From: a virus
Strand: one strand, 5' to 3'
IMG/VR virus record: IMGVR_UViG_3300037961_002872
Location: 1 to 21,330 of that record
Length of the DNA stretch: 21,330 nucleotides
Part shown: positions 1,694 to 19,987 of the stretch, in pieces
How positions within the stretch are numbered: position 1 is the first letter of the stretch
Layout: each line of letters starts with the position of its first letter
Position numbers and translations under genes: made by a program
Notes under the pieces: generated by a model
The model's input: only the letters and a program-made list of their open reading frames with translations
Told to the model about the DNA's origin: nothing
The model's database searches: none

Positions 1694-2164
1694 ATGAACA
1701 AACGTGACTATAAAAACGCAGGCGCTGCGCGCTATCAGTTAATCCGAAAAGATGGTCAGTATCACCTGTCTATCAATGGCGAGACGGTTGTTCTGTCTTC
1801 TTTTGATGCCGCCGTTAAACGCATGAAGGATGAGGAGCACGCACGGCAATGCCGCCGCTATATTGTATGCCTGTCTTTCTCTCGTGAGTTTGATCCAGAC
1901 GAAACTGAGATCATTCACATAAAAGCATTGAACCGCACAGACGCCGTTTTTCAGGCTCAATACCAAGTAGCAGAGAATCAGGCGCTCGCCATTGAACACG
2001 GCGGCGAAGTAGATGGAGAAATCATGTTCGGAGAATCACCAGACCATCCGAACATGGTAGATCGCTTTTACTTCACGGCGGCGTTTGTCTGGGATTGGGA
2101 TGAGATGGTAGCCGTCACCGATGGATTACAGACCATTGAACTTTGGGAAAAGCGGGAGGATTAA
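1694..2164 (+). CDS. Hypothetical protein, first gene of the rightward block
   Basis: 156 residues, ATG at 1694 preceded by GGAGG about 8 nt upstream. No family is recognised. The sequence is soluble and mixed: a basic N-terminus (about residues 1-55, with YHLSINGETVVLSSFDAAVK reading like a beta-hairpin and helix), then RRYIVCLSFSREF and a more acidic C-terminal half ending in a Trp/Asp-rich FVWDWDEM and ELWEKRED. There is no signal peptide or membrane segment. It is followed 2 nt later by the next start codon, with that gene's ribosome site inside this one's end. Early expression and a host-takeover role are plausible from position only. Confidence 0.75.
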   Translation: MNKRDYKNAGAARYQLIRKDGQYHLSINGETVVLSSFDAAVKRMKDEEHARQCRRYIVCLSFSREFDPDETEIIHIKALNRTDAVFQAQYQVAENQALAIEHGGEVDGEIMFGESPDHPNMVDRFYFTAAFVWDWDEMVAVTDGLQTIELWEKRED

Positions 2165-2166
2165 TC

Positions 2167-2526
2167 ATGGAGCCAATTCAAGCATCACTTGAGGAACGTA
2201 AGGAAAACGGCAATTACAACGCCGAAGAGCAGGCCGTCTATAACCTGCTTACCGAATGCGGTTTCACGATTGGGCACACAGGCGGCGGCTGTACGTCTTG
2301 GACGCTAGATTTCCCAAATTGTGAAGTATTGCTTTCACAAGACGCAGGCCACATTTTCTCCCCAGAGGATATGGAGTATTGCGGCGTCTGCGTTGGCGTT
2401 TACAACTATTCTGATTGCTGTCCTGTTTGGGAGGAGAGCGTTACAGAATATGCCGACATTGCGAGGTTGGTTTGTCTCGCCATCACTAAGGCCATGACTT
2501 ACCGACCAGAGGAGGGCGAAGGATGA
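2167..2526 (+). CDS. Hypothetical acidic, Cys-rich small protein
   Basis: 119 residues from ATG 2167, chosen over an in-frame upstream start at 2143 because GGGAGGA sits 5-13 nt before it and the previous gene ends at 2164. Cysteines cluster as CGF, GGGCTSW, NCEVLL, YCGVCVGVYNYSDCC; the CGVC and CC groups might bind a metal, though no known zinc-finger pattern is complete. The C-terminus is acidic (RPEEGEG). Its stop overlaps the next start in ATGA, implying translational coupling. Function unknown. Confidence 0.75.
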   Translation: MEPIQASLEERKENGNYNAEEQAVYNLLTECGFTIGHTGGGCTSWTLDFPNCEVLLSQDAGHIFSPEDMEYCGVCVGVYNYSDCCPVWEESVTEYADIARLVCLAITKAMTYRPEEGEG

Positions 2527-2732
2527 GATTACTTTCCGCATATCTTGGGTTGGATGACACTTGGCAAAGTTTCGCGCGTGACGCGCACCTGCCGCTGGTG
2601 GAGTTGGATACGGTTGATCTTCACTTTGTCGGAGAGCATGACCACCTAACGCCGGATCAGGTGGCGATCTTGCAAATGCTTTGCACGGCTCATGACGCGC
2701 TACGCGCCATTGAAGAGATACTAAACGACTAG
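2523..2732 (+). CDS. Hypothetical 69-residue protein
   Basis: Starts in the ATGA overlap with the previous gene. The 69-residue product is acidic and looks helical in its second half (LTPDQVAILQMLCTAHDALR). It has no membrane segment and no recognised motif. It is the last gene before an intrinsic terminator 19 nt downstream, so positions 1694-2732 form a three-gene unit. Role unknown. Confidence 0.7.
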   Translation: MRLLSAYLGLDDTWQSFARDAHLPLVELDTVDLHFVGEHDHLTPDQVAILQMLCTAHDALRAIEEILND

Positions 2733-2751
2733 CCACAACGCTTAACCTCCA

Positions 2752-2783
2752 CCCCCTACCGGATGACGCCGCAGGGGGTTTTT
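2752..2783 (+). terminator. Intrinsic terminator
   Basis: CCCCCT (2752-2757) pairs with AGGGGG (2773-2778), with an inner CGG/CCG stem (2760-2762 and 2769-2771), followed by TTTTT (2779-2783). It lies just after the three-gene unit. Only 46 nt separate it from the next gene, so some read-through is likely. Confidence 0.75.
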
Positions 2784-2829
2784 CAGTAGAAGGCCCGCGC
2801 TTTGCTGGGTCAACCTTGGAGGGTTACAG

Positions 2830-3192
2830 ATGACGAAGACAGACGCTTACCACAACGCGCGCGCATGGGCGCACGATACGGCGCAGGAAATGCGCTCAGA
2901 GATCATAGAAAGCTATTGCACGGCGACTAATGACGAGTGGCTAGGATTAGAAACGATGTTCTTAGAGCGCTCGCACGACCTGGCTGACAACGCTTCTATC
3001 TGGACGGCTGACAATTGGGAACTCGTGGCAGCCACGCGCATTTGCGACTTTGACGCGGTAGCAGAGGCCGAAGATTGCGCCGGACGCTGTTTTGATTCTC
3101 TGGACACTGAGATAACCGCAATAAGCTATTGGATCAGGGTTAATCTCTTGTGCGAGCAGATACAGGAGTTATTTCCATCGCAGGCGGCATAA
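2830..3192 (+). CDS. Hypothetical acidic helical protein
   Basis: 120 residues, ATG at 2830 behind GGAGGG. Strongly acidic with a helical, Trp/Asp/Glu-rich composition (TNDEWLGLETMF, TADNWELVAATRICDFDAVAEAED), suggesting a small soluble helical bundle; acidic phage proteins of this size sometimes mimic DNA or bind host enzymes, but no motif shows that here. It is a single gene between two intrinsic terminators, the second only 7 nt past its stop. Function unknown. Confidence 0.75.
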   Translation: MTKTDAYHNARAWAHDTAQEMRSEIIESYCTATNDEWLGLETMFLERSHDLADNASIWTADNWELVAATRICDFDAVAEAEDCAGRCFDSLDTEITAISYWIRVNLLCEQIQELFPSQAA

Positions 3193-3198
3193 CCACAT

Positions 3199-3230
3199 GC
3201 CGGAGTGTTCATAGCGCTCCGGCTTTTTTT
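3199..3230 (+). terminator. Strong intrinsic terminator
   Basis: A perfect 7-bp stem GCCGGAG (3199-3205) / CTCCGGC (3217-3223) with an 11-nt loop is followed by seven T (3224-3230). It closes the transcript of the 2830-3192 gene and isolates the repeat region downstream. Confidence 0.9.
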
Positions 3231-3242
3231 CGCCAGGTTGAC

Positions 3243-3257
3243 GCCCGGCTGCCGGGC
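3243..3257. repeat. Perfect inverted repeat with 1-nt centre
   Basis: GCCCGGC (3243-3249), T, GCCGGGC (3251-3257). It lies 13 nt after the terminator, is not followed by a T-tract, and opens the repeat-rich control region upstream of 3428. It could be an operator or a second hairpin. Confidence 0.6.
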
Positions 3258-3293
3258 TACTGGCTAGGTTTTCGCCGGGGCGATCGAGCAGCC

Positions 3294-3406
3294 GTGCGAG
3301 ATTTCGTGCGAGGTTTTTATCCCGGCAGGTTTTTTTTCGAGCGAGCATTTTTTCGAGCGAGCTTTTGCTCAAGGTAATTTTGTTTTTGTGCGAGTTTTCG
3401 TGCGAG
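3294..3406 (+). repeat. Phased GTGCGAG and TTCGAGCGAGC repeats upstream of a gene
   Basis: GTGCGAG occurs at 3294-3300 and 3306-3312 (12-nt period) and again at 3388-3394 and 3400-3406 (12-nt period); each pair reads GTGCGAG-n5-GTGCGAG with a T-rich spacer. Between the pairs lies TTCGAGCGAGC at 3336-3346 and 3352-3362 (16-nt period). The spacers are T-rich, giving an alternating pattern. The array ends 22 nt before the start codon at 3428. This arrangement is typical of protein-binding sites (operators or iterons), but the binding protein is not known. Confidence 0.7.
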
Positions 3407-3427
3407 ATTTTAATGAGGAGAAATGAA

Positions 3428-3703
3428 ATGACAGAAGTAACCAAGATTGGTGACGTTGAGATCGCTTACGATACTGGTGTCTCTTACTGCCAAGAATTAG
3501 TTGAAGAGATCGGCAACACTGTTGAAGATGAAGTGATTGCCTCTGCATATGCAGGAGCGATGGCTTACATCGCTTTTTCTGTTGGTGGTTCGGCATTTGA
3601 CCCAGAAGAAGGAGAGAAAGCGCTGTTTAAAATGTTCCAGATTGCAGAAATGATGTTTCATGAAGGCGTTAATTCTCAGGAGGTGATGAACGATGTCCAA
3701 TAA
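3428..3703 (+). CDS. Hypothetical acidic protein downstream of the repeat array
   Basis: 91 residues from ATG 3428, chosen because GAGGAG lies 8 nt upstream; in-frame starts further up fall inside the repeats. The product is acidic (pairs of Glu throughout) with a hydrophobic, Ala/Gly/Met-rich central stretch (YAGAMAYIAFSVGG, about residues 41-54) that is short for a membrane span. The C-terminal part appears helical. Next gene starts 11 nt before this one ends, with its ribosome site inside this gene. Not recognised; the upstream repeats suggest dedicated regulation. Confidence 0.75.
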   Translation: MTEVTKIGDVEIAYDTGVSYCQELVEEIGNTVEDEVIASAYAGAMAYIAFSVGGSAFDPEEGEKALFKMFQIAEMMFHEGVNSQEVMNDVQ

Positions 3704-4034
3704 AGACGGGTCAACACATATAGCCGCAGCAGGGATGCTCGGCTTTCTTTGGCGCTCCAGTGACTTCCACTATTTATGGCACACCGCCACGGAGTCATTT
3801 TACGAGGAGCAACCAGAACGGTTTACCCTCGCCACCCCCAGCGACACTTTTGATGGGGAGCGCTTTACGGGTCAATGGTGGATGTATTGGTACGACACCT
3901 GCGCGGACGCGCTACTGGCTCGAGAGATCGCCCAGAACCGTGGGGAAATCGCCTACCTGTTGCACGATTCGTGCGAGCATTTTGCGGGTCCGGTTTTACT
4001 TACAACGATGGGGGATGGTAGTAATGACGATTGA
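3693..4034 (+). CDS. Hypothetical aromatic-rich protein
   Basis: 113 residues, ATG at 3693 behind AGGAGG spaced about 10 nt. Rich in Trp, Tyr and His (FLWRSSDFHYLWHTATESFY, GQWWMYWYDTCADALL) with an acidic C-terminus. No family is recognised. It overlaps the GIY-YIG gene by 11 nt, so the chain 3428-5906 is probably one translationally coupled unit ending in the methyltransferase. Confidence 0.7.
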   Translation: MSNKDGSTHIAAAGMLGFLWRSSDFHYLWHTATESFYEEQPERFTLATPSDTFDGERFTGQWWMYWYDTCADALLAREIAQNRGEIAYLLHDSCEHFAGPVLLTTMGDGSNDD

Positions 4035-4530
4035 TAAACAGCGTACAGCTCTCTATCGCGCTTACTCATCAACCGGCGAACTAATGTATGTCGGGATATC
4101 GCTCAGTGTTATGTCTAGGTTGAGCCAGCATAAGAACTCCTCGGCATGGTTCAACAGCGCCGCAAGAATTGACATTGAATATTATCCGACCCGAACAGAC
4201 GCGTTAGCCGCAGAGAAGCAAGCGATTCAGACCGAATGCCCCGTTCATAATAAGGCCGGAAAAGTGAAGGATGCCGTTCCGTCAAGCATACCTTGCACCC
4301 TTCCCGGTACCGGAACGCTTGAGGATCTGATTTGGGAGTGTCGCGTATGGGACAGGCTTGTTACTCGGTACGAAGAAAAAGCGCGCAACAGCAATTCAAT
4401 AATAATGGCTTTGTATCACCAGAAGCTGGCTGAACAAAATGCTAAGAAAGCAAATTTACTGTGGTTACGAAGGAAGGAGCGCAAAAATTCGCTTAATAGC
4501 CGACAACGGATACACGGGATTGCAGCATGA
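4024..4530 (+). CDS. GIY-YIG family endonuclease
   Basis: 168 residues from ATG 4024, chosen because the GIY-YIG domain begins at once; a longer in-frame start at 3760 would run out of frame through the upstream gene. The domain spans residues 8-78: the first strand LYRAYSSTG, the second strand MYVGIS (21-26), Arg32 and His36 in SRLSQHK, catalytic Glu64 in LAAEKQAI and Asn76 in PVHN. These match the GIY-YIG catalytic set. The C-terminal 80 residues are basic and helical and may bind DNA. It overlaps the methyltransferase by ATGA. Such nucleases act in restriction, repair or homing; which applies is not shown, and the methyltransferase neighbour makes restriction or marking an obvious possibility. 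Confidence 0.82.
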   Translation: MTIDKQRTALYRAYSSTGELMYVGISLSVMSRLSQHKNSSAWFNSAARIDIEYYPTRTDALAAEKQAIQTECPVHNKAGKVKDAVPSSIPCTLPGTGTLEDLIWECRVWDRLVTRYEEKARNSNSIIMALYHQKLAEQNAKKANLLWLRRKERKNSLNSRQRIHGIAA

Positions 4531-5906
4531 GATACGGATCTGTGTGTTCAGGCATCGAGGCAGCCACAATGGGCTGGCATCACTTGGGCTGGGAACCTGC
4601 ATTCTTTTCGGATATTGATCCGTTCCCCCGTGCGGTGCTTTCCCACCATTACCCGGATATCCCCTTGCATGGGGATTTCACCACAATAGGAGAGGATGAT
4701 TATGGATCAATTGAGCTTCTTGTCGGAGGAACCCCCTGTCAATCCTTCAGTGTCGCCGGACTCAGAGGCGGAATGGATGATGACCGTGGCAACCTGGCGC
4801 TCGAATATCTTAAATTGGCTCAACGCAAGCGGCCCAAGTGGCTGGTATGGGAGAACGTCCCCGGCGTCTTGTCATCAAATGGAGGACGGGACTTTGGAGC
4901 CTTCCTCGGAGGGATGGTTGAGCTCGGGTATGGGTTCGCCTACAGAATTTGTGACGCTCAATATTTCGGCTTGGCCCAGCGCCGCCGCCGTGTGTTCGTT
5001 GTCGGATATCTTGGAGACTGGAGGCGTGCAGCAGCGGTACTTTTTGAGCGCGAAAGCCTGTCAGGGAATCCTCCGCCGCGCAGAGAAACGGGGGAAAGAG
5101 TTGCCCCCGCAGTTACGACTGGCCCTCCTTTCAGTCGCACAGGGAACGAGCGAGTAGAGGCTGATGCTATGGTTCCGGTGTTCCCCACCCTTGATGCGTC
5201 AATGGACGCCAAGTTTGGTAGTAACCAATGGGTTGATAGCGGGCAATGGGTTCTTGATGATGTTTCTAAATCTCTGATGGCACACGGCGTCCGCTTGGAC
5301 CCAGAAACAGAGAGCTTCATTGCTTTCCACCCTACTCAGACACCGATCAGCAATAAAGATGTTTGCCACGCAATTGGCGCGAATCCCAACGCCACAGCAG
5401 CCGTAGCTGTATACACGCCGGAGACGGCTAATTGCCTAAGTGCCAGCCCGTCAAGCAATACCAGCCCGAATGTGGCGTCAGGGCAGGGCGATGTTATTGC
5501 GTTTTCTGCTTACAACCAGTCGGTGGAGACTGATGATGTGTCTCAGACAATTGCGGCCCGTAACGATCAGGACACGGCCTCATGCGTGGCTGTAGCGTTT
5601 GCGCAAAATAGCAGAGATGAGCTCCGGGAGTCTCCGGTTGTCGGTGCGTTATCAACGGGTGGAGGTAAACCCGGTCAGGGTTATCACGCCGTGCGAGAAA
5701 ATATGAAAGTGAGGAGGCTGACACCGCGAGAATGCGAACGTCTACAGGGCTTCCCTGATGACTTTACTAAGATTCCCTACCGCAACAAGCCTGCGAGTGA
5801 TTGCCCAGACGGACCTCGATATAAGGCTTTGGGGAACTCTATGGCTGTGCCAGTCATGAAATGGATAGGGGAGAGAATAGAAAAGGTGACGCGGCTGACT
5901 GAATAG
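4527..5906 (+). CDS. DNA cytosine-C5 methyltransferase
   Basis: 459 residues. Transfers a methyl group from S-adenosylmethionine to C5 of cytosine. Motif I is GSVCSGIEAA (4-13); motif IV is GGTPCQSFS (67-75) with catalytic Cys71; motif VI is WENVPG (108-113); motif VIII is QRRRRVFVVG (151-160); the late motifs are RRLTPRECERLQGFP (396-410) and GNSMAVPV (436-443). The catalytic set is complete. The region between motifs VIII and IX (about 165-395), which should hold target recognition, is long and weakly repetitive, with lines beginning IAFHPT, VAVYTP, IAFSAY and VAFAQN about 30 residues apart. The start is the ATGA overlap with the nuclease gene. A second gene is nested in the +1 frame (4702-5157). 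Likely roles are protection of phage DNA from host restriction or pairing with the adjacent nuclease. Confidence 0.93.
   Translation: MRYGSVCSGIEAATMGWHHLGWEPAFFSDIDPFPRAVLSHHYPDIPLHGDFTTIGEDDYGSIELLVGGTPCQSFSVAGLRGGMDDDRGNLALEYLKLAQRKRPKWLVWENVPGVLSSNGGRDFGAFLGGMVELGYGFAYRICDAQYFGLAQRRRRVFVVGYLGDWRRAAAVLFERESLSGNPPPRRETGERVAPAVTTGPPFSRTGNERVEADAMVPVFPTLDASMDAKFGSNQWVDSGQWVLDDVSKSLMAHGVRLDPETESFIAFHPTQTPISNKDVCHAIGANPNATAAVAVYTPETANCLSASPSSNTSPNVASGQGDVIAFSAYNQSVETDDVSQTIAARNDQDTASCVAVAFAQNSRDELRESPVVGALSTGGGKPGQGYHAVRENMKVRRLTPRECERLQGFPDDFTKIPYRNKPASDCPDGPRYKALGNSMAVPVMKWIGERIEKVTRLTE
4702..5157 (+). CDS. Overlapping phage protein nested in the methyltransferase gene, +1 frame
   Basis: 151 residues entirely inside the methyltransferase gene. 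It has its own Shine-Dalgarno sequence: AGGAGAGG (4688-4695) ends 6 nt before ATG 4702. The product looks like a real protein: an N-terminus MDQLSFLSEEPP, a central EDGTLEPSSEGW and GMGSPTEFVTLN, then a conserved-looking end with SLSDILETG, RYFLSAKACQGILRRAEKRG and LPPQLRLALLSVA. From memory, phage hypothetical proteins with the same SLSDILETG...LS..AC.GILRRA..RG ending occur beside or over phage cytosine methyltransferase genes; I could not check this. In the methyltransferase frame the shared segment covers motifs IV to just past VIII. The basic C-terminal helix might bind nucleic acid. Function unknown. Confidence 0.72.
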   Translation: MDQLSFLSEEPPVNPSVSPDSEAEWMMTVATWRSNILNWLNASGPSGWYGRTSPASCHQMEDGTLEPSSEGWLSSGMGSPTEFVTLNISAWPSAAAVCSLSDILETGGVQQRYFLSAKACQGILRRAEKRGKELPPQLRLALLSVAQGTSE

Positions 5907-6472: not shown

Positions 6473-6885
6473 CAGAAGTAATCCTCAAACTCCAACCTTC
6501 CTACTGCACCACATTCTCGCAAAGCCTTCATTTGGTCAAGCTGTTCTCTATAATGTTTAGCTATGTCACCTTTGCCTTTTGTCTTTCTTGCTTCCTTGCC
6601 CCTGAAAGTATCTTCCGCCATCTCTTGCAGTAATTGACGCTCTTCCTCAGTGAGTGACCTCTGCATCCAATTGCCACCCTCTTGCATATGACAGCCGTAA
6701 CACGCAGCTTGAGCATTGAGGCCCGTAAATCGAGTCCCCCACTTACCCCTAGAATGCCCGTGGCTACAGTGGAGTCCGCGATGCCCTTCCTCATATTGGG
6801 TTCCACAGCGTTCGCATTTCCACTCCGCCCTTTCCTTCACACATTTGGCAAATGCGGTATCTGCTGGTGTTATTTTGATGCCCAC
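6472..6885 (-). CDS. HNH-type nuclease, phage recombination region
   Basis: 137 residues, GTG start at 6885 in a TAGTG overlap, with GGAGG upstream. Residues 24-66 carry a zinc-stabilised HNH core: CERC (24-27), HCSHGH (39-44), Asn57 in GLNAQAAC, and CYGCHMQ (62-68). CxxC pairs bind zinc and the His42/44-Asn57-His66 set would form the active site. The C-terminal half is charged and helical. It follows a NinB-like gene, as nin-region nucleases do in lambdoid phages, so processing of recombination or replication intermediates is the likely role. It does not resemble lambda NinG closely enough to use that name. Confidence 0.75.
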   Translation of the reverse strand: MGIKITPADTAFAKCVKERAEWKCERCGTQYEEGHRGLHCSHGHSRGKWGTRFTGLNAQAACYGCHMQEGGNWMQRSLTEEERQLLQEMAEDTFRGKEARKTKGKGDIAKHYREQLDQMKALRECGAVGRLEFEDYF

Positions 6886-7680: not shown

Positions 7681-8660
7681 CAAAACCCCTCCACGGTTCT
7701 CAAGTCTAGTTTTACATCGTTACCCCAGCGGGCGTCTTTAAACGTCAGGCCGTTGCCATACCACAGCTTTAACAGCCCGTTGTAGTTGCTTCCAAACTTC
7801 TGCTTCCGAATCTGCACCTCTAAATCAGATTTTTCATCTAGTAAGTCGCGCTCCGCAGCCGTCAGAAACTGGCCCGCCGATTCTTTCTCTAACGCCTCTG
7901 CCCGCTCAACACTCCGGTTTACCAAGATCAGGTTAGTAGCCAAATCTGTAAACGCTCCAGCGCCGCGAACGTCATCGGACGTTGAGCGAGTGTTTACCAT
8001 AGTGCTAGGCCGCTTCCGAGTGTGGTGAATCAGGACAATGTGGAGCTCTAGTGCCTCAGCTAACCCAATCAACGCATTGATAAAATCACGTTGCTGGTCA
8101 ATGTCCTCCGACACACCGCACTTCTGCACGTTGTCCACCACAATCAGTTTGCAGCCACGCTGGTGGAAAGCATCAATACAACCATACGCTCTTGCAGGCT
8201 GTACCGTGGCGTAAACCTTGTAATGCCAAATTCTGTCCCGTGTGAAACGGCAGAGAGCGTCAAACTGCTCCCTTGTGACATTATCCGTGGCAAATGCCTG
8301 CTTCATAAAACGATACACCTGCGCTCGGAATGGCTCCTCAAGGCTCATCATTCCCACGGGGTGAAACCTAGAGTAGTGCAAGGCCAATTGGCTCACTAGC
8401 GCAGACTTTGCGCTGTTGTTTGGCCCAGCAACGAGAGTTACCTCGCCGGGACGCCACCCCCACCGCTCGTTCATCGCATCCCACGGCATCGGCACGCCGC
8501 TGTTCTTGCCATGCTCCGCCATCTCAGACCAAAGCTGATCCTTAGCGTCCGACATCTGGGTAAGACGCATTGACTCAAATTGGCTTAACCGTTCCGCTAA
8601 TTGGCTTGGGGATAGGTCACGGATGTCTTCATCTCGAATGGGCTGTAGTACCTCACTCAT
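7680..8660 (-). CDS. DnaB/RecA-fold replicative helicase-like ATPase
   Basis: 326 residues from ATG 8660 in an ATGA overlap with the upstream gene (a TTG at 8672 is unlikely). A RecA-type ATPase core fills residues 55-300: Walker A GPNNSAKS (79-86), a MSLEEP block like DnaB motif 1a (105-110), Walker B KLIVVDNVQ (171-179), a HHTRK sensor (212-216), and RGAGAFTDLATNLILVNR, like the late DnaB motif. Residue 84 is Ala where Walker A usually has Gly. The N-terminal domain of full DnaB is short or absent, as in other phage helicases. It would unwind DNA at the fork together with the neighbouring primase-like and loader-like proteins. Confidence 0.82.
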   Translation of the reverse strand: MSEVLQPIRDEDIRDLSPSQLAERLSQFESMRLTQMSDAKDQLWSEMAEHGKNSGVPMPWDAMNERWGWRPGEVTLVAGPNNSAKSALVSQLALHYSRFHPVGMMSLEEPFRAQVYRFMKQAFATDNVTREQFDALCRFTRDRIWHYKVYATVQPARAYGCIDAFHQRGCKLIVVDNVQKCGVSEDIDQQRDFINALIGLAEALELHIVLIHHTRKRPSTMVNTRSTSDDVRGAGAFTDLATNLILVNRSVERAEALEKESAGQFLTAAERDLLDEKSDLEVQIRKQKFGSNYNGLLKLWYGNGLTFKDARWGNDVKLDLRTVEGF

Positions 8661-9253
8661 AATCCAGCCCAATTCTTACGAACCGCCTCCTTAAAAGCCG
8701 CATCCCAATTAACGTAGGTGTAGCCTTTCGCTACCGCTCGGTCTACAAAATGGTCTAGGTGCTGATTCAGAGAGCCATGCCCGTTCCGCAGCGCCCAATC
8801 CCTGACCTGATCTGAAATAGAAAAATCAGAAGGAATAGTGGTTTTCCTTTGTATCTTTCTCTTCTCTTCTTTTCTATTAGGAGGGATTTTCTCCTGATCT
8901 ACTCCAGAGTTTATCCTGACAACATTGTTCTGACGCATTAACTTCACGGTGTATTCATCTGATCTGCTGGACATTTTCAGGCACGTTATGCGCCCTTGTG
9001 CGTTCTCAAACAAACCCAATTCACACATAAATCGCATCATCTCTTCCACCCTGTCTCGATGGATGTTGATCTCTGCTGCGATAAGCTCTGCGTCCTCCTC
9101 CAACTCGAACGTCAAGTTATGAGGCTCAACGGTTCTGGCTACGCACTCTAGTAGATACCAATAAACCCCATAGCCCTCCATTCCATACTTCAGCCGTAGG
9201 CGCTTCAACTTTGCGTCCATGCTGGCGGTAGAGTCGTGCTTAAACCATTTCAT
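8657..9253 (-). CDS. Phage replication initiator/helicase-loader-like protein
   Basis: 198 residues, ATG at 9253 in an ATGA overlap. The N-terminal 90 residues begin MKWFKHDSTASMDAKLKRLR and GMEGYGVYWYLLE, which is the pattern of the Lin1244/Lin1753-type winged-helix domain found in phage replication proteins (DUF4373-like). A basic linker (about 120-140) follows. The C-terminal part, HLDHFVDRAVAKGYTYVNWD then AAFKEAVRKNW, resembles the DnaT/loader-type tail. Such two-part proteins bind origin DNA and recruit the helicase, whose gene follows directly. Confidence 0.75.
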   Translation of the reverse strand: MKWFKHDSTASMDAKLKRLRLKYGMEGYGVYWYLLECVARTVEPHNLTFELEEDAELIAAEINIHRDRVEEMMRFMCELGLFENAQGRITCLKMSSRSDEYTVKLMRQNNVVRINSGVDQEKIPPNRKEEKRKIQRKTTIPSDFSISDQVRDWALRNGHGSLNQHLDHFVDRAVAKGYTYVNWDAAFKEAVRKNWAGL

Positions 9254-9663
9254 TTAGACGCCTCCCGCTTGACCATTTTGGAAAAGCCAAACTCCTTGCC
9301 GCCCCGGAGGGCGGCGCGTTCAGCCTCAGCTAACTGACGGTCATTGAGAGGCTTGGAGTTATTGGCTAGGTCAACGATGTAATCGTCGTTTGTGCGCTCT
9401 TTGATGCCGTTACGCCGGGCTATACTGGCGTAATGCCGATCCTCCTCTGGATAAAGCTCCTCCCAAGAAACGCCGACAGCGCTTATGACATCCAGGTTAG
9501 AGCAACCGGCCCAGCAATGTAAAAGCAGACGCCCATCTTTCCCGACATCAATCGCCAGAGACGGGCTGGTGTCCGAATGAGCCGGACAACACGCGATCCA
9601 GCTTCCTTCCCCCTTCTTCTTCACCTTCTGAAGTCTGCTTAAAAAATTGCTGTAACTGCTCAT
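9250..9663 (-). CDS. CHC2-type zinc-finger primase fragment
   Basis: 137 residues, ATG at 9663. Residues 22-56 hold a primase zinc-binding motif: CCPAHSDTSPSLAI (25-38) then LLHCWAGCS (47-55), giving Cys26-x2-His29 and Cys50-x3-Cys54. The start is firm, because members of this family begin with a similar LxRLxKVKxxG block. Only the zinc domain is present; no TOPRIM polymerase part follows, so it may supply template recognition for another primase or a host enzyme. Its first 116 nt overlap the regulator gene upstream. Confidence 0.82.
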   Translation of the reverse strand: MSSYSNFLSRLQKVKKKGEGSWIACCPAHSDTSPSLAIDVGKDGRLLLHCWAGCSNLDVISAVGVSWEELYPEEDRHYASIARRNGIKERTNDDYIVDLANNSKPLNDRQLAEAERAALRGGKEFGFSKMVKREASK

Positions 9664-9904
9664 TTGGCGTTTGTCCCCCTTGCGCTTCGAATTGCGCCCT
9701 TTTGTTTGATTTAATAAGCATGGATGCTAATTCACTCTCATCTATGTCCAGAGCGTCACAGATTTTGAGCAGTGTTGTGACTCGCAAATCGCTTTGATTG
9801 CGCCAGCGGCTTAGTTGTTGCGGTGTAGTGTCAATACGCCTTGCTAATTCTGCCGCTGATACCTTCTTTCGAGCCTGCATTTCTTTTACCAAATCACCAA
9901 TCAT
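9548..9904 (-). CDS. XRE/Cro-type HTH regulator
   Basis: 118 residues from ATG 9904, 1 nt after the previous stop. Residues 1-62 form a lambda-repressor-like HTH: DLVKEMQARKKVSAAELARR is helices 1-2, DTTPQQLSRWRNQ is the turn and recognition helix, and VTTLLKICDALDIDESELA is the last helix pair. The remaining 55 residues are polar and end in a Gly/Glu/Arg-rich tail that runs 116 nt into the primase-fragment gene. There is no peptidase domain, so it is a Cro-like or small-repressor type rather than a self-cleaving repressor. It probably controls this operon or its divergent partner. Confidence 0.8.
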   Translation of the reverse strand: MIGDLVKEMQARKKVSAAELARRIDTTPQQLSRWRNQSDLRVTTLLKICDALDIDESELASMLIKSNKRAQFEAQGGQTPNEQLQQFFKQTSEGEEEGGRKLDRVLSGSFGHQPVSGD

Positions 9905-9905
9905 C

Positions 9906-10169
9906 TTAAAACCCCGGATCAGCTTTGACGGGAGCCTGCTCTTTCTGATTAGGCTCGTAAGTGTTTTCTTTCGCATAGGGCTTTCCGCCCTTAGAAATCA
10001 AAAACTCCATGTTCAACCATTCGGTGTCCGGGTTTAATTCCAGCCATGCCGTTATGAACTCTCGGAACTGCGGGATGTTGATGTTGCAATTCCCGATCTT
10101 CCAATCAGGCGCATTTGGATTGCGCTCCTTGGGGTAAACACCCCCGATTAACACACCATCATTGCTCAT
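9906..10169 (-). CDS. Hypothetical small phage protein
   Basis: 87 residues from ATG 10169, chosen over an in-frame upstream start (10247) that would lie inside the previous gene; AGGAG lies about 10 nt upstream. The sequence starts MSNDGVLIGGVYPKERN and contains NCNINIPQFREFITAWLELN; the C-terminus is Lys/Pro/Gln-rich. It may be a small OB-like or annealing-accessory protein, as its pattern 'GGVYPKE...NINI' resembles short phage DNA-metabolism proteins, but no family can be named. Stop and start overlap or abut both neighbours. Confidence 0.65.
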   Translation of the reverse strand: MSNDGVLIGGVYPKERNPNAPDWKIGNCNINIPQFREFITAWLELNPDTEWLNMEFLISKGGKPYAKENTYEPNQKEQAPVKADPGF

Positions 10170-10842
10170 CAGCGAAAATCTCCTTTCTTGCTGCGTTACT
10201 TTCATTTGTGCGGAAAAATGCCCGCTCCTCAGTGGTAAAAACCCCACCCTTTGATGGCGCTAAACCAAATAACGCCTCCAAATCATCATTGTCGATGTCA
10301 CAGTAATAGCGGTTAGCCTCTAAAACATCGCCCACTTTGACCAAATGCTTCATGTCTACCACATGATTCCAATGCTTCCGCACGGCGTTTAAGTGCTGCA
10401 ATAACTCCATGCCTCTGATGCGGCACGCCTCAAGATCAGCTTCTGCCTGCTTCACGTTACCCGCCTTTTCTTGAAAGTCATCGGCCTCCTCTTCGCTGTA
10501 GGCGTCACCATGCAAACCAACCAGCTTGAGTATCACGCGATCCTTGGCTCGCTTTTCTGCCATAGCGCAGTAGTATTTGTTGTGGCTGGTAGCGGCAGAT
10601 GCCTCACCCACCGACCACTCTGATTTACCCTCTAGCCTGCCTGTAACACAGATAGCCGCGAACTCTGGGCTAATGTTTAGTGGCTGCGGCGCGTCAAACT
10701 CAATCTTCAGGTGCATCGCCACCTTCTCTAATGCTTTGTGCTTCACGGCCCATGTCCCCGACCGCACTTCCCAGCAGGCGCTTTTGCCATCCTCTCCTAC
10801 GGCCTTCAGAAGCTCCTGTAAGCGCTTTGGTATTGAACTCAT
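10159..10842 (-). CDS. Phage DNA-metabolism protein, possible annealing protein
   Basis: 227 residues, ATG at 10842 behind AGGAGG and overlapping the upstream stop in ATGA. Residues 72-116 read EGKSEWSVGEAS, HNKYYCAMAEKRAKDRVILK and LVGLHGDAYSEEEADDF. The pattern of a WSxGEA turn followed by a basic AMAEKRAKDRxILKL helix recalls the ERF/Rad52-like single-strand annealing proteins, though I cannot confirm it. The C-terminal third holds a YYCDIDNDDLEALFGLAPSK segment. Next to recombination and replication genes, a strand-annealing role is plausible; uncharacterised conserved phage protein is the safe name. Confidence 0.6.
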   Translation of the reverse strand: MSSIPKRLQELLKAVGEDGKSACWEVRSGTWAVKHKALEKVAMHLKIEFDAPQPLNISPEFAAICVTGRLEGKSEWSVGEASAATSHNKYYCAMAEKRAKDRVILKLVGLHGDAYSEEEADDFQEKAGNVKQAEADLEACRIRGMELLQHLNAVRKHWNHVVDMKHLVKVGDVLEANRYYCDIDNDDLEALFGLAPSKGGVFTTEERAFFRTNESNAARKEIFADEQ

Positions 10843-11126
10843 ACATCCTCCTTTCTGGTTCCGTTATCTTCCATCTGAGCAAGCTCATAGCCCCTGCTGT
10901 AGCCATAGCGGTATGCCTCTGACTCAAAGGGGGTAATCCTGCTGTAATCGTGAACGTAGCCTGCCAAGAACCCGTCGAAAAATTCACTTCTTAGTTTAGG
11001 CAGGATGTCTGCAAACTGCTCCTCAAATATCCGCATAGTGTGCTGGATATCAACTATTTTGGCCTGACCGAAACACTCAGAATGCCTCATGCCGCGCTCA
11101 ATTAAATCGTTTTGATCAGGAATCAT
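10839..11126 (-). CDS. Hypothetical phage protein
   Basis: 95 codons from ATG 11126, chosen because it overlaps the upstream stop in ATGA with GAGGAG 9-14 nt before. The product looks helical and has the line EFFDGFLAGYVHDYSRIT, then YRYGYSRGYELAQMEDNG, which is rich in Tyr and Gly. A Gly-Tyr repeat of this kind (YRYGYSRGYE) is common in short phage proteins of replication operons. No motif gives a function. Confidence 0.65.
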   Translation of the reverse strand: MIPDQNDLIERGMRHSECFGQAKIVDIQHTMRIFEEQFADILPKLRSEFFDGFLAGYVHDYSRITPFESEAYRYGYSRGYELAQMEDNGTRKEDV

Positions 11127-11506
11127 TCGGTCCACTCCTCGTATCGCTCTACGCGCAGAAGTAACCATTGATGGATTTGCTCTTGCAGGTAGCCCCAGAT
11201 AGCCTTCGCAGTTTCGTAAGCAACTGGCGGCAGGCCGTCAATCTCAGCAGCGTCCATTGTCTGCATGACCCACTCCATCTGACTCCGCACGCAATATGGT
11301 GCAATCTCAGAGAGCCAATCGTCATAACCGTCTTTCAAAAACTCCAAAACCAGGTCAGCGCGTAATTGCGCTAGGTTGCCCGGCGCTGGACCCACCTCAC
11401 CCGCAGAGCTCAGCAATCGAGACGGATAATCACGCCAATCTGGGTCGTGCTTAACGACCTCCTCCACTAAATCAAGCCAATGCTGGCCCCTATCAAGTAC
11501 GCTCAT
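11123..11506 (-). CDS. First gene of the leftward replication operon, unknown
   Basis: 127 residues from ATG 11506, preceded by GGAGG spaced 6 nt; the longer start at 11533 has no ribosome site. Sequence is acidic and helical with Trp-rich segments (VLDRGQHWLDLVEEVVKHDP, QMEWVMQTMDAAE, AKAIWGYLQEQ). No family is recognised. A good candidate promoter lies upstream at 11565-11594. Being the first gene of a replication block, it may be an early regulatory or host-interaction protein. Confidence 0.7.
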   Translation of the reverse strand: MSVLDRGQHWLDLVEEVVKHDPDWRDYPSRLLSSAGEVGPAPGNLAQLRADLVLEFLKDGYDDWLSEIAPYCVRSQMEWVMQTMDAAEIDGLPPVAYETAKAIWGYLQEQIHQWLLLRVERYEEWTE

Positions 11507-11564
11507 ATTTCCTCCAATGCGGTAAATCCGCAAAACAAATAATAAGCCAGTTTGTTTAGGTTGT

Positions 11565-11594
11565 ACTATATTTTTTTGTTCTTAAACTAGGCAA
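11565..11594 (-). promoter_or_regulatory. Candidate sigma70-like promoter of the replication operon
   Basis: On the minus strand TTGCCT (11594-11589, 4/6 to TTGACA) is followed by an 18-nt spacer and TATAGT (11570-11565, 5/6 to TATAAT). Transcription would start near 11558, about 50 nt before the ATG at 11506. The region is AT-rich and shared with the divergent phosphatase gene at 11637. Confidence 0.55.
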
Positions 11595-11636
11595 CATACA
11601 AAACTAACCGATCTAAATCATTTCTGGGGGAATGTC

Positions 11637-12797
11637 ATGGATCATCCACTGCTCGAATTTTGCACGACAGATAAGCAAAGGCAGTGCGTCCGCCTCAATT
11701 GCATTGAAGGGTTGTCTCAGTATGAGATTGGCAGAAAGCTGGACATAACTCGTAGCGCCGTCCGAGACCACCTAAAAGTTGTAAAGGATAAGGCCGCAAG
11801 ACGCGGTTACAGCCCAGATCATGACTGGAAAAACCCCGTTCCTGACGGTCATAAAATTAAGGGTGTATCAACATTTTATGATGGGGAAGGCACTGCTATC
11901 CGGCAATGGGTGAAATCTCAGACAGATGAAGAGCGTCAGTTTGAAATTTTAGTTGAGCGAATAGAGGCAGCTAATGAGGGGCTTCCGAAATTTAAGCCCC
12001 TAGCAGCCCCGAAAACCGTAGATGGCGATTTACTGACCTTGCTCACCATAACCGATTTCCACTTGGGTATGTATGCCTATGAAGCTGAAACCGGGGATGA
12101 TTGGGATGTCACCATAGCGCGAGACGTTTTCCTCAATTCAGTACACGACATGATCAAGGCATCACCGAAGTCTGGCACCGGGATTCTTTGTCAGCTAGGA
12201 GACTTCTTGCACTGGGACGGAATACTTAGTGTCACGCCGCAGTCAGGTCACATTTTGGATGCCGACACCCGCTACGGCAAGCTGGTTGAATTGTCCATGT
12301 CTGTCATGACCGAAGCCGTCAAGATGATGCTTAAACATTTTGCCAAAGTTGTTGTCATTTCAGCGGAGGGAAATCACGACATTTCGGGAAGCATTTGGCT
12401 ACGGAAGCATCTTAAACACCTTTTCGCTAAAGAGCCTCGACTTGAGGTTATTGACAATGACTTTCCTTATTACGCTTACCTACACGGTCAAACCATGTTG
12501 GGCTTCCATCACGGTCATAAAGTAAAGCTGGCGCAGCTGCACAAACTATTCGCTAGTGAGCCTCGCTTCCGAGAGATGTGGGGGGCGTCCACTAGCGCGT
12601 ATTTGCATACTGGGCATCTGCATCACGAGAGAGTAATTGAAGACGGCGGGGCAATCGCTGAGATGCACCCGACCCTAAGCGGCAGGGATGCGTATGCAGC
12701 TCGAGGGGGTTGGGTATCAAGACGCGGGGCAAAGGTTATCACTTACCACAAAACAGATGGTGAAGTTGGCAGGATTACAGTGAGGCCAAGAAGATGA
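11637..12797 (+). CDS. HTH-domain fused to a calcineurin-like metallophosphatase
   Basis: 386 residues, ATG at 11637 with GGGGGA upstream. N-terminal residues 11-50 form a sigma-region-4/LuxR-like HTH: KQRQCVRLNCIEGLSQYEIG then RKLDITRSAVRDHLKVVKDK. After a linker (about 60-130) comes a two-metal phosphoesterase: DFH (140-142), GD (188-189), GNHD (245-248), HHGH (291-294) and GHLHH (326-330), which are the five metal-binding blocks in family order. The resemblance is to SbcD-like DNA-active members, so the protein may bind a DNA site and cut or dephosphorylate nucleic acid. It is divergent from the replication operon and coupled by ATGA to the next gene. Confidence 0.83.
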   Translation: MDHPLLEFCTTDKQRQCVRLNCIEGLSQYEIGRKLDITRSAVRDHLKVVKDKAARRGYSPDHDWKNPVPDGHKIKGVSTFYDGEGTAIRQWVKSQTDEERQFEILVERIEAANEGLPKFKPLAAPKTVDGDLLTLLTITDFHLGMYAYEAETGDDWDVTIARDVFLNSVHDMIKASPKSGTGILCQLGDFLHWDGILSVTPQSGHILDADTRYGKLVELSMSVMTEAVKMMLKHFAKVVVISAEGNHDISGSIWLRKHLKHLFAKEPRLEVIDNDFPYYAYLHGQTMLGFHHGHKVKLAQLHKLFASEPRFREMWGASTSAYLHTGHLHHERVIEDGGAIAEMHPTLSGRDAYAARGGWVSRRGAKVITYHKTDGEVGRITVRPRR

Positions 12798-13051
12798 TAC
12801 CTATATTTAAAGTCCCAATGGGTAAGGGTCAGATTGCTTTACTAACAGAGACAATTGGCGGGGCCATGTCTAACAGCACCAGCCCAGAGCTAACAGACGT
12901 TTACACCGACACCTTCCCAGATGGCGTAACAGTAGACATCACAATAAATGATTTTGTTAAGATTTGGTTGACTTGCTATTGTTGCGAGCTAGAAGAGCTC
13001 GAGGGCGAAATTGAGTTTTTAGTTTCAGACCAATCCGACAAGGTTCATTAG
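12794..13051 (+). CDS. Hypothetical partner of the phosphatase gene
   Basis: 85 residues, ATG in an ATGA overlap with the phosphatase gene. It starts with MIPIFKVPMGKGQIALLTET, has a Thr/Asp/Val-rich middle and an acidic LTCYCCELEELEGEIEFLV stretch with a CYCC group. An internal ATG at 12866 could be an alternative start. The stop converges on the endolysin stop, sharing 4 nt. Coupling suggests work with the phosphatase, but function is unknown. Confidence 0.65.
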   Translation: MIPIFKVPMGKGQIALLTETIGGAMSNSTSPELTDVYTDTFPDGVTVDITINDFVKIWLTCYCCELEELEGEIEFLVSDQSDKVH

Positions 13052-13419
13052 TACGACCACACCGTAGGACCGGGCCTGTCATCGCACCAATCTAAATGAA
13101 TAAACCGCAAAGTCCCGCGCTGATTGACGCCTACTCGCGGAACATTATGAGCAAATGCCACTTTCAGCAAGGCATGAGCTTTGTCCAATTCAACAGCCAA
13201 GTCAACAGCCTTGCCTGTAGTGTGAGCCCCAGGCGGTCTACCATTCGCTATTTTGTCAGCCTCAATTGAGTGTTTTGGGCATCTGTAGCCTGAAGATACA
13301 GGTAATGGGAAGCCTACTTCTTCACGAATATCGTTTAGCCGAGCAAGAGCTTGCTCATCAAACCGATACGTCCCGCAGCCGCACTTGCAGCGCAGCTCAT
13401 CTTCACTGAAATAACTCAC
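13048..13419 (-). CDS. M15-family peptidase endolysin
   Basis: 123 residues, ATG at 13419 overlapping the holin-like stop in ATGA. It cuts peptide stems of the host cell wall from the inside. The fold is that of M15/Hedgehog-like D-Ala-D-Ala or L-Ala-D-Glu peptidases: SSGYRCPKHS (42-51), zinc ligands His66 and Asp73 in GAHTTGKAVD (64-73), and His108 in RFIHLDW (105-111). The N-terminus has a Cys-rich CKCGCG (11-16), common in this subfamily. No signal peptide or anchor is present, so it needs a holin, and several membrane proteins precede it. Length is typical of the family. Confidence 0.9.
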   Translation of the reverse strand: MSYFSEDELRCKCGCGTYRFDEQALARLNDIREEVGFPLPVSSGYRCPKHSIEADKIANGRPPGAHTTGKAVDLAVELDKAHALLKVAFAHNVPRVGVNQRGTLRFIHLDWCDDRPGPTVWSY

Positions 13420-13610
13420 TCTTTCTTGCCTAGAAATAAACCAAATGCCCCGGTTAGCGCGCCCGTCATAACTGACACGAGAGCGGCTTGCTCTGGGTTG
13501 GGGTCAGGGAGAGACATAAACCACTCAACGGTGCGATATGTCATTGCAATCATGGCAAACATCAGCAATCTGGGGATGATGCGCCATGCGTTAAGTTGCT
13601 CTGGGGTCAT
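13416..13610 (-). CDS. Small two-helix membrane protein, holin candidate
   Basis: 64 residues, with two hydrophobic helices: IIPRLLMFAMIAMTYRTVEW (11-30) and AALVSVMTGALTGAFGLFLG (42-61), a PDPNPEQ turn between, and a basic end GKKE. This resembles short two-helix phage membrane proteins (class II holin topology). It directly precedes the endolysin and overlaps its start by 4 nt, the normal place for a holin. An alternative is an accessory lysis protein. Confidence 0.7.
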   Translation of the reverse strand: MTPEQLNAWRIIPRLLMFAMIAMTYRTVEWFMSLPDPNPEQAALVSVMTGALTGAFGLFLGKKE

Positions 13611-13981
13611 GACTTTTTGAGCTTCATCAGCTTGTCAGCGCCCTTAATCCCGAAGGAGGCGCTCACAGCCAGAAAAAGTAAGTATTGATACCAAGACGGT
13701 AAAGTATCAAGTGCATCAAAGCTATCGCGAACGCGACCAACAATAGTGGGATCATCCATGACAACAGAGTATGCCAAACAAAATAAAGGCGCTGCCAAAC
13801 AAATAGTCCAAAATTCGTCTTTCCAGCTCGACGCAGAAGCCGCCGCCATCTTAGCTTCCCAATCCGCATCATTTTGGATAACTTGGAGCTTGGCTTGGTG
13901 CTTGGCTTGCGCTTGCTCATGCTTGTTGGTGAGATAACCAGATGCAAGATTAGCTATCGGCCCTATCAATGCCTGTAGCAT
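13607..13981 (-). CDS. Phage membrane protein, possible holin or lysis accessory
   Basis: 124 residues from ATG 13981, which overlaps the previous stop in TGATG. An N-terminal Ala-rich half is helical and amphipathic (KHEQAQAKHQAKLQVIQ). Two hydrophobic spans follow, FWTICLAAPLFCLAYSVV (about 57-74) and YQYLLFLAVSASFGIKG (about 97-113), separated by an acidic stretch. The pattern of a charged helix and SSWKDE before the first span is shared, from memory, with unassigned phage membrane proteins next to lysins. Probably a lysis protein; not proven. Confidence 0.6.
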   Translation of the reverse strand: MLQALIGPIANLASGYLTNKHEQAQAKHQAKLQVIQNDADWEAKMAAASASSWKDEFWTICLAAPLFCLAYSVVMDDPTIVGRVRDSFDALDTLPSWYQYLLFLAVSASFGIKGADKLMKLKKS

Positions 13982-14163
13982 CAACGGAAACGCCTATTAA
14001 AGCGGCGATATACGTCTCGCGCTGTATCAGTCTCCCATATCCGAATTGCAGTCCAAATAATCGTTAAAACGGCGGCAATCGCTGGGAGTAAACCAGCAAG
14101 AGCGCCAACGCCTGTCGCTACCGAAACAGTATCCACTACTTGCTTTAACCCCTCATCACTCAC
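13981..14163 (-). CDS. Small single-span membrane protein
   Basis: 60 residues, GTG start at 14163 with AGAGGAT 6 nt upstream. One long hydrophobic segment, GVGALAGLLPAIAAVLTIIW, with a following AIRIWETD, spans about residues 18-44. The tail is Arg-rich (YRRFNRRFR) and would stay in the cytoplasm. Similar small Trp-Arg-ended membrane proteins accompany phage lysins. It overlaps the next gene by 1 nt and is probably coexpressed with it. Confidence 0.65.
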   Translation of the reverse strand: MSDEGLKQVVDTVSVATGVGALAGLLPAIAAVLTIIWTAIRIWETDTARDVYRRFNRRFR

Positions 14164-14178
14164 CGTTTTATCCTCTAC

Positions 14179-14661
14179 TTACTGCAACGGGTTGCTTACC
14201 GCATCCATTGCATTCCACAAGTCATCTATTTCGCGTCTAAGGCTTTGCATTCTATCATCATATTTACTGACTATATCAGCTTGACTTTCGACCGTGATAG
14301 CACTTTCTCCGGCCTGCCGCTCCGCTGTCTCTACTCGATCACGCAAATCTAGTAGCTCTCTCTGGCGCTCCATAATCTGCTCCAGATTAGCCCCTAGCTC
14401 TGCCAGCTTGCCCTGTAGCCCAGCGATGTTTTGGTCAACAAGGCGCTGCTCTACAAGACCAACGCGGTCTGTGATATCTGTAAGGTCAGGGACTTGAATA
14501 GCATTAAGGCGCTCCTCAATGCCGTCAATCCGAGCGAAAAACTGAGAAGCAGCCCATATGCCGCCGCCAATGCTAGTAGCCATAGACAGAACAATAGCGA
14601 TCCAAACACCTTTGAAGCTAGTGCCATTAACATTTAGCTCAACCCCATCTAAACCTGACAT
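14179..14661 (-). CDS. Membrane-anchored coiled-coil protein, spanin-like candidate
   Basis: 160 residues. One N-terminal membrane segment, GVWIAIVLSMATSIGGGIW (18-36), is followed by about 110 residues of Glu/Leu/Arg-rich coiled coil (VEQRLVDQ, GKLAELGANLEQIMERQREL, RVETAERQ, DDRMQSLRREIDDLWNAM). A short cytoplasmic start and a long outside coiled coil are typical of an inner-membrane spanin, and it lies among lysis genes. No lipoprotein partner is directly adjacent; the nearest lipoprotein is two genes upstream. Other phage coiled-coil membrane proteins exist, so spanin is a hypothesis. Confidence 0.6.
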   Translation of the reverse strand: MSGLDGVELNVNGTSFKGVWIAIVLSMATSIGGGIWAASQFFARIDGIEERLNAIQVPDLTDITDRVGLVEQRLVDQNIAGLQGKLAELGANLEQIMERQRELLDLRDRVETAERQAGESAITVESQADIVSKYDDRMQSLRREIDDLWNAMDAVSNPLQ

Positions 14662-14662
14662 C

Positions 14663-15514
14663 TCAACCGCCCTGACAGCTATCGACTATTGAAGGATCTT
14701 GGAAGAACGCGCATGGGTTATAAGTAGGCCCAGTCTGGTAGAACCCGCTAGTCTCACCCTCTGTCAGTATTTCTGCCGTTGTCTTAAAGTAATCGCCAAC
14801 CGATACCGCAACCGTTGCAACCACCTCGTTAAACTTCACCGTCACATCGCCTGTAGCCGCATCAAAGAACGACTCAGTAGCATCGGCATACGTTGTATCT
14901 AGCTGTGCCGCCTGCTCGTTTGCGCTGTCAATGAGCTCCGGGCTAGACGCTACCGCCATAAATGCAGCAGCAGTCTGGGTCGTTTCTTCTACGTTTGTTA
15001 GCGCATCGTTGTAAATATCTACCTCTGCGTCCTGCAGCGTAACGTCATTTGTGTTGAGGTATTCTTGCACTGCCGCAGCCTTTTCGTTGTCCCCAGCTGC
15101 TTGGGCGTCAGTGGCAATCTCATTTACCCGGACAACCTCAATCACCGCCTGCGCCGCATCTACATAAGCGTCAACCGCTACGGCAACCTGGTTCATAGCT
15201 TGATCTGACGCCTCATTGAAATATTCTTGAGCGCCAACATCTATGGGATACGTTGCTGCCTGTACTGCAGCCACCGCAGCGTTATAAGCATCTGCCTGAC
15301 CATAGCTAATCAAGCCATCAGTTACTGTGCCTACCGGAGCAATGCCGCCCGTTTGAGCGTAGGCAGCCATTCCGCCGACCGCCCTTATCCCGTAATCAAA
15401 CGTAGACCGGATTGACGCACTTGTGCTTACAAGATCATCAATCCCCGCCGCTGTTAGTGCTGGTGCGGAAACGCTCGCTAATACTAGCCCCGCTATCGAC
15501 TTCTTCAATTTCAT
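14663..15514 (-). CDS. Exported Ala/Val/Thr/Asp-rich protein of the late operon
   Basis: 283 residues from ATG 15514, with AGGTGA 6-11 nt upstream; a GTG 9 nt earlier also fits. The N-terminus, MKLKKSIAGLVLASVSAPAL, is a classical signal peptide, with cleavage expected near ALTAAG. The mature protein is Ala/Val/Thr/Asp-rich and acidic, with long low-complexity helices (ASDQAMNQVAVAVDAYVDAA). Two Cys lie near the C-terminus (NPCAFF and DSCQGG), possibly a disulfide. It overlaps the previous gene by 77 nt. Function unknown; a host-surface or virion-related exported protein is possible. Confidence 0.65.
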   Translation of the reverse strand: MKLKKSIAGLVLASVSAPALTAAGIDDLVSTSASIRSTFDYGIRAVGGMAAYAQTGGIAPVGTVTDGLISYGQADAYNAAVAAVQAATYPIDVGAQEYFNEASDQAMNQVAVAVDAYVDAAQAVIEVVRVNEIATDAQAAGDNEKAAAVQEYLNTNDVTLQDAEVDIYNDALTNVEETTQTAAAFMAVASSPELIDSANEQAAQLDTTYADATESFFDAATGDVTVKFNEVVATVAVSVGDYFKTTAEILTEGETSGFYQTGPTYNPCAFFQDPSIVDSCQGG

Positions 15515-16064
15515 CTGTTTCACCTATGTTCAACATGGCATCGTAGTAGGGCTTTCTTTTCACATAGTCCGGTATGAATACCGTGGGCAACTGGCGCATC
15601 GCCATCATTGCCGCTCGACCTACCACTAGCTTGCCATTTACCAATATTGGGCAAGGCGTCCCAGACGTAAACATCGCTGTCCAGATTTCTTTCTCTTGGC
15701 ACATGAGGCTTACTGCCGCAATGCTCATGCCCAATTCCTTGAGAGTCTTAGCGTCTTTGCGCCGATTGCATTTTTCGTCTTGCATATATTGCCCAGCGGA
15801 GATGCCAATCATCACAAACTGAGCGCCGCCTGATTTTGATTTTAGGCAAGTGTCGTTGCCGCTACTCATCAGGCTAGGAGAAATGGCGCTGTACACCGGC
15901 ATCTGACTGCTAGACCCAGCACCATTAAACGTCTTTGAATTGTTTGTTGTACTGTTGTTGGAATTAACAGTACTGTCTTGCGTGTTAGTGTTGAGGTCGC
16001 CCTGCTGATCGTTTTGCGCGTTTGCACTTACAGCCAGAAAAACAAACAGCAGGAACCACCTCAT
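15438..16064 (-). CDS. Exported four-cysteine protein of the late operon
   Basis: 208 residues, ATG at 16064, no clear ribosome site, so coupling from the preceding lipoprotein (4 nt upstream) is likely. MRWFLLFVFLAVSANAQ is a signal peptide. Then a Ser/Asn/Thr/Gln-rich low-complexity stretch (about 18-50) precedes a folded part with MPVYSAISPSLMSSGNDTC and KSGGAQFVMIGISAGQYMQD. Cys73, Cys99, Cys122 and Cys138 are the only cysteines and may form two disulfides. I recall similar secreted phage proteins with the YSAISPSL block, without assigned function. Its tail overlaps the next gene by 77 nt. Confidence 0.68.
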   Translation of the reverse strand: MRWFLLFVFLAVSANAQNDQQGDLNTNTQDSTVNSNNSTTNNSKTFNGAGSSSQMPVYSAISPSLMSSGNDTCLKSKSGGAQFVMIGISAGQYMQDEKCNRRKDAKTLKELGMSIAAVSLMCQEKEIWTAMFTSGTPCPILVNGKLVVGRAAMMAMRQLPTVFIPDYVKRKPYYDAMLNIGETDEIEEVDSGASISERFRTSTNSGGD

Positions 16065-16068
16065 AGCA

Positions 16069-16860: not shown

Positions 16861-16861
16861 G

Positions 16862-17230
16862 TCAAATGTCCTTCCCTAAACTAAAGGTGAAAGGCTTATA
16901 ACCTTTCTTGTCCAGCACCCGTTGCCAGCCTTTACGGCCCGCAACACTCATCCCAGTACAGCCGCTTAACTTTGCATAGTGTACCGCCGATTCATCCATA
17001 TCAACAATAGTGTCCATATTTCCGCCCGCTAGGAAGATATGTAACACTTTTTTGCGCGGGTAACATATGATCTCAGTTACAGCGCAGGCATCGTCAGCAG
17101 GCCAAAACTGCATTAAGCCTTTTTTTACGCCATCTACGATGTCTTCAAATATGTGGGTGTTGCCCCCTCTGTCTAATGCCGCCTCAATCCACGGTTTACA
17201 GCGGTCTAGCTCTTTATCTAAATCCTCCAT
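16862..17230 (-). CDS. Conserved phage protein, GNAT-fold-like
   Basis: 122 residues, ATG at 17230 behind AAGGAG. Pattern: RCKPWIEAALDRGGNTHIFE, MQFWPADDACAVTEIICYPR, KVLHIFLAGGNMDTIVDMDE, GCTGMSVAGRKGWQRVLDKK, GYKPFTFSLGK. I associate this layout with a roughly 120-residue protein found next to tail genes in many podovirus-like phages. The strand-turn around VLHIFLAGG and the closing GRKGWQRVLDKKGYKPF recall the core and end of GNAT acetyltransferases, but catalytic residues are not evident and the substrate is unknown. It could have become a structural or chaperone-like protein. Confidence 0.65.
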   Translation of the reverse strand: MEDLDKELDRCKPWIEAALDRGGNTHIFEDIVDGVKKGLMQFWPADDACAVTEIICYPRKKVLHIFLAGGNMDTIVDMDESAVHYAKLSGCTGMSVAGRKGWQRVLDKKGYKPFTFSLGKDI

Positions 17231-17241
17231 TTACGCACTCC

Positions 17242-19942: not shown

Positions 19943-19987
19943 AGCTGCTCTCGCTCTTAATCCCTATATTTTACTACGGCTAATAAA

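Follow-up and report, generated by a model that had tools for sequence, protein, structure and literature searches.

In phages and plasmids, multi-site operators and activator regions carry a short asymmetric word in several direct copies, which are closely paired and placed in the gap that precedes an operon. A recognisable promoter is usually found among or next to the sites of operator arrays, but is not strictly required. Direct repeats beside T-rich DNA are found also in iteron origins, such as lambda ori and RK2 oriV. Stoperators of cluster A mycobacteriophages are 13-bp asymmetric sites, the orientation of which follows transcription (PMC9283540); those of the L5 type are intergenic, and more than 20 are spread across the genome (PMC9283540). 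The Start-associated sequences of cluster K mycobacteriophages are asymmetric 13-bp repeats, located in the same direction before the starts of many genes (PMC3203893).

The array described here was found in the IMG/VR virus record IMGVR_UViG_3300037961_002872, analysed as a whole (21,330 bases, hereafter the window). The record is classed as linear, which often denotes a fragment. It is a fragment of a little known tailed phage, and array and surrounding gene module are both seen on this one metagenomic contig. The array resembles multi-site operators in that a short asymmetric word recurs in several direct copies, closely paired, in a gap ahead of an operon, and differs from them in that no clear sigma-70 promoter is recognised and the regulator is putative. 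As in Start-associated sequences, the repeats are asymmetric and run in the same direction upstream of a gene start, but here six precede one gene and one is internal.

The array and its gene context

The features considered are the following, all on the + strand.

3199-3223, +: intrinsic terminator with an 11-bp stem and a T7 tail, closing the gene run 1694-3192
3294-3300, +: site 1, GTGCGAG, weakest array member, with a GC-rich upstream flank
3306-3312, +: site 2, GTGCGAG, 12 bp from site 1
3339-3345, +: site 3, GAGCGAG, inside TTCGAGCGAGC (3336-3346)
3355-3361, +: site 4, GAGCGAG, inside TTCGAGCGAGC (3352-3362), 16 bp from site 3
3388-3394, +: site 5, GTGCGAG, with a T preceding its first G
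3400-3406, +: site 6, GTGCGAG, 12 bp from site 5, its end 8 bp 5' of the Shine-Dalgarno sequence
3415-3420, +: Shine-Dalgarno sequence GAGGAG of the first operon gene, read from the sequence
3428-3703, +: first operon gene, acidic 91-aa ORFan, pI 4.1
3693-4034, +: second operon gene, acidic 113-aa ORFan, overlapping the first by 11 bp
3971-3977, +: site 7, ATTCGTGCGAGCATTT, matching over its full length, located within the second operon gene and 46 bp upstream of the start codon that follows
4024-4530, +: third operon gene, GIY-YIG endonuclease
4527-5906, +: fourth operon gene, C-5 cytosine DNA methyltransferase

The gap at 3293-3406 hosts, within 113 bp, six CG(T/A)GCGAG-like sites, which all lie on the + strand. 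An earlier note on this DNA had described GTGCGAG pairs with a 12-nt period around a pair of TTCGAGCGAGC with a 16-nt period, located after a strong terminator and just before a gene. All these elements were found again, GTGCGAG at 3294, 3306, 3388 and 3400, TTCGAGCGAGC at 3336 and 3352, the terminator at 3199-3223 and the gene start at 3428. Beyond that description, the central pair is made of the same motif, with T changed to A at the second position (GAGCGAG), so that six sites share one orientation, their starts are spaced 12-33-16-33-12, and a seventh site is located at 3971. Likeness between copies is not confined to the 7-mer but reaches into the T-rich flanks, and alignment of the six sites gives an extended consensus close to TTTCG(T/A)GCGAGNTTTT. 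Pair centres are 47 bp apart. The central pair forms a tandem with a 16-bp unit, and over 27 nt pairs 1 and 3 share 89% of their positions. The six sites show no significant helical phasing (Rayleigh p ~0.10 at 10.5 bp).

The module (1694-5906) lies on the + strand, and is flanked by two blocks on the - strand, carrying replication and structural genes, respectively. The former encodes a DnaB-like helicase, a primase, an initiator-like Lin1244_N protein and homologues of NinB and NinG. Overlaps of 11, 11 and 4 bp in the run 3428-5906 suggest that the four genes make up one operon. The gap hosting the array measures 235 bp and is the only long one of the module, in which genes elsewhere overlap or are separated by 2 to 97 bp. 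Placed directly between the strong terminator and the Shine-Dalgarno sequence, it is the only upstream regulatory room of the operon. Six consecutive small acidic ORFans (pI 4.1-4.9) are encoded at 1694-4034, and no PHROGs, Pfam or PADLOC match was obtained for these proteins where tested. Runs of small acidic proteins are frequent among early host-takeover or DNA-mimic genes. The structure predicted for the 91-aa protein is unusable (pLDDT 52). Elsewhere in the window, the protein encoded at 11637-12797 combines, at the N terminus, a helix-turn-helix resembling sigma-70 region 4 with a phage DNA repair exonuclease family (phrog_704).

Distribution of the sites in the window and in relatives

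Six same-strand copies in 113 bp are far beyond chance. The window contains 10 copies of GTGCGAG, compared with a computed expectation of 2.7 in line with the 2-3 copies anticipated earlier, and none of 100 shuffles reached 10; CGWGCGAG occurs 9 times, against 1.1 expected. When non-simple 7-mers repeated at least four times within 130 bp were sought, this array alone emerged in the window. A cluster of four-copy size, which leaves the two variant copies uncounted, was obtained in 1 of 200 order-3 Markov simulations of the window.

Three related contigs have been compared. One of these, G003 (29,836 bases), is ~99.9% identical to window 8293-21330, stops short of the module and runs 16.9 kb beyond the right end of the window. 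About 83 bp at 14442-14524, inside the gene 14179-14661, are missing from this otherwise 99.9% identical contig. Replication genes are shared by the window with G002 (35,001 bases) and G001 (11,312 bases), mostly at 30-80% protein identity, and structural genes with G002, again mostly at 30-80%; both lack the module. The same 7-mer scan found no array in the sequence compared of the three contigs, of which G003 and G001 are fragments. Neither module genes nor array were found in 80 further loci, retrieved through the protein encoded at 561-1112. The T-rich two-site pattern has no relative in viral contigs or in 84,980 genomes, and ORFans of the module gave no match in GenBank phages (tblastn, five ORFans), IMG/VR (peptide pattern, three) or plasmids (tblastn, one). 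As far as seen in the relatives and loci compared, the array thus appears specific to this accessory module.

Spacings in multiples of 3 are expected of coding repeats, and are mainly observed in most clusters found in the loci of the 80 relatives. Array spacings fit no coding period, and a coding-repeat reading was rejected, the 16- and 47-bp periods being no multiples of 3.

A weight matrix built from the six sites was run over the window and the 16.9 kb of G003 beyond its right end (~38 kb). Site 7 is the one further full-length site found. Its score falls within the array range, above the weakest array member, and was reached in 4 of 2000 order-2 Markov simulations of 38 kb (p ~0.002, assessed after the site was seen). 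The GTGCGAG copies which the earlier note had reported on either strand at 1212, 2970, 3150, 3971 and 5691 were all recovered, and the scarcity it had seen in the right part of the window holds, a single copy (18305) being found right of 5691. The left bias continues when the count is taken beyond the window, as the note had proposed, with 0 copies in the 16.9 kb of G003 past the right end. Location of the copies outside the array is skewed to the left module, with 5 in the 4.7-kb module vs 1 in the other 33 kb, a bias assessed after being seen. Their excess in number is weak alone, as 11% of composition-matched words reach 6 copies. Most of them lack T-rich flanks, and for this reason only the copy at 3971 is counted as a site.

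Possible functions of the array

Position, number, orientation and extended sequence of the copies, and the outlying seventh site, favour an array of putative binding sites controlling the operon. As in direct-repeat operators, one word recurs beyond chance, in several copies, in noncoding DNA before a gene. The chances that the array is a multi-site operator for a putative regulator of the operon 3428-5906 are, in our judgement, about even. A sequence-specific DNA-binding regulator, of phage or host origin, would recognise the extended consensus and bind as three pairs of adjacent protomers, 12, 16 and 12 bp apart, at spacings approximating one to one and a half helical turns. Once bound, the regulator would set transcription of the operon, and site 7 may serve as an auxiliary internal site.

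A convincing sigma-70 promoter was not found in the gap by scoring against a host sigma-70 consensus only. The best + strand match (TTGTGC-17-TTTAAT, 3386-3414) has a score close to the median for 235-bp stretches, and transcription from it would start past the Shine-Dalgarno sequence. Given these weak signals, activation or read-through control past the terminator is at least as plausible as repression. The XRE protein encoded at 9548-9976, the only clear one recognised, does not appear to be a specific candidate partner, because the relatives G001 and G002 keep the XRE gene yet show no array. Neither GTGCGAG nor GAGCGAG is described as a recognised operator word in the literature searched, which returned unrelated oligonucleotide occurrences only.

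The resemblance of pairs 1 and 3 indicates that the array may in part have arisen by duplication. All of it could derive from neutral or selfish local growth, the T-rich 16-bp unit and the 27-bp segment having been duplicated by slippage without acquiring a function. The central tandem, the near identity of the outer pairs and the lack of anything similar in relatives are in keeping with such an origin. Simple local duplication does not explain, however, a spatially separate seventh full-length site, which lies in the same operon and strand and shares the extended sequence. Cores are moreover kept while sequences between cores diverge, and the pairs are regularly spaced by 47 bp in a regulatory position. 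Growth of this kind is held to be unlikely, and less likely than an operator, as are the three explanations that follow.

Each of the seven sites is asymmetric and follows the direction of transcription; like the operon, they are on the + strand. Six are found in one gap downstream of a terminator, and one inside the operon. A monomeric repressor bound to such sites could halt RNA polymerase past the terminator in an orientation-dependent manner, as an elongation roadblock akin to stoperators. L5-type stoperators are similarly asymmetric, intergenic and in one orientation relative to transcription. In these, however, more than 20 sites are distributed across the genome, whereas the present ones are clustered in one place and not scattered over many intergenic spaces in the ~38 kb scanned; the word is different, and no repressor related to the stoperator family was recognised. 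A roadblock is accordingly considered rather improbable. The bolder proposal that the seven sites exert stoperator-like elongation control in a phage not related to mycobacteriophages, gating an accessory operon that encodes a nuclease, a DNA methyltransferase and acidic proteins with a possible anti-defence role, is a long shot.

The sites could alternatively act in RNA, in the leader of the operon mRNA, as an attenuator, serial weak terminators or targets of an RNA-binding protein. All have the sense of the mRNA. Hairpins containing G-U pairs and followed by U runs can arise from pairs 1-2 and 5-6, and were reported by a terminator scan; 3249-3259 can pair with 3318-3328, ahead of GU8. Yet the region folds no better than shuffled sequences (z -0.17 and -0.77; single sites, z -1.4 to +0.2), and matches no Rfam family. 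An RNA element thus seems as improbable as a roadblock. At 3244-3328 a GCCCGGCTGCCGGGC hairpin was also noticed, the 3' half of which can alternatively pair with CCCGGCAG at 3321-3328, followed by GT8. This alternative pairing is attenuator-like and overlaps pair 1 of the array.

The earlier note had read the array as binding sites or iterons. The first part is retained, since an array of putative binding sites is the most natural reading of copies that are clustered, in the same orientation, intergenic and at the head of an operon, with an outlying seventh site and a bias to the left module. A replication origin with iterons, or a partition centromere, would likewise consist of direct repeats adjoining T-rich DNA, but neither is supported. 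In contrast to lambda ori and RK2 oriV, the array is irregularly spaced and is neither beside nor inside an initiator gene: the initiator-like gene (8657-9253), helicase and primase are 3-7 kb off, on the opposite strand. GC skew does not switch at the array, being positive on both sides. Replication genes are common to G001-G003, none of which has the array in the sequence compared, G003 and G001 being fragments, and no partition gene was noticed. An origin or centromere is thus very improbable.

Similar words in other phages and significance of the array

Viral contigs scanned for the exact pair yielded four matches attributable to chance, three of them copies of one sequence. A three-copy gapped pattern retrieved 64 stretches, the majority of them coding or simple repeats. 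Contig IMGVR_UViG_3300037851_000469 (L053, rc 1-420, and L080) hosts near one end ~20 copies of the 11-bp unit GTGCGAGATTC in ~1 kb, mostly direct and a few inverted, suggestive of a strong array, of binding sites or of an origin, in another phage. The 7-mer, the T-containing spacer and the many direct copies in a compact region are as in the window; unit length, copy number and extent over 1 kb all differ, no relation to the window phage was detected, and the shared core may be a coincidence. Direct copies of GTGCGAGTT located right after an intrinsic terminator, and followed by inverted copies, were found in L034 (rc 6500-6700) and L076 (10290-10480), apparently Mu-like phages judging by eye from Mor-like and GemA-like proteins. 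No relation to the window array was shown for either group, and the L053 and L034 regions had no blastn match in GenBank phages.

The array is a real feature, the function of which we infer; its novelty is modest, features of this sort being fairly ordinary, and in general it would be a regulatory site of a familiar type. If a phage protein binds to it, the array would offer a regulatory handle on a module that encodes acidic ORFan proteins together with a nuclease and a methyltransferase, in a phage group not yet described. It would then show when the module genes switch on, which bears on whether these genes counter host defences.
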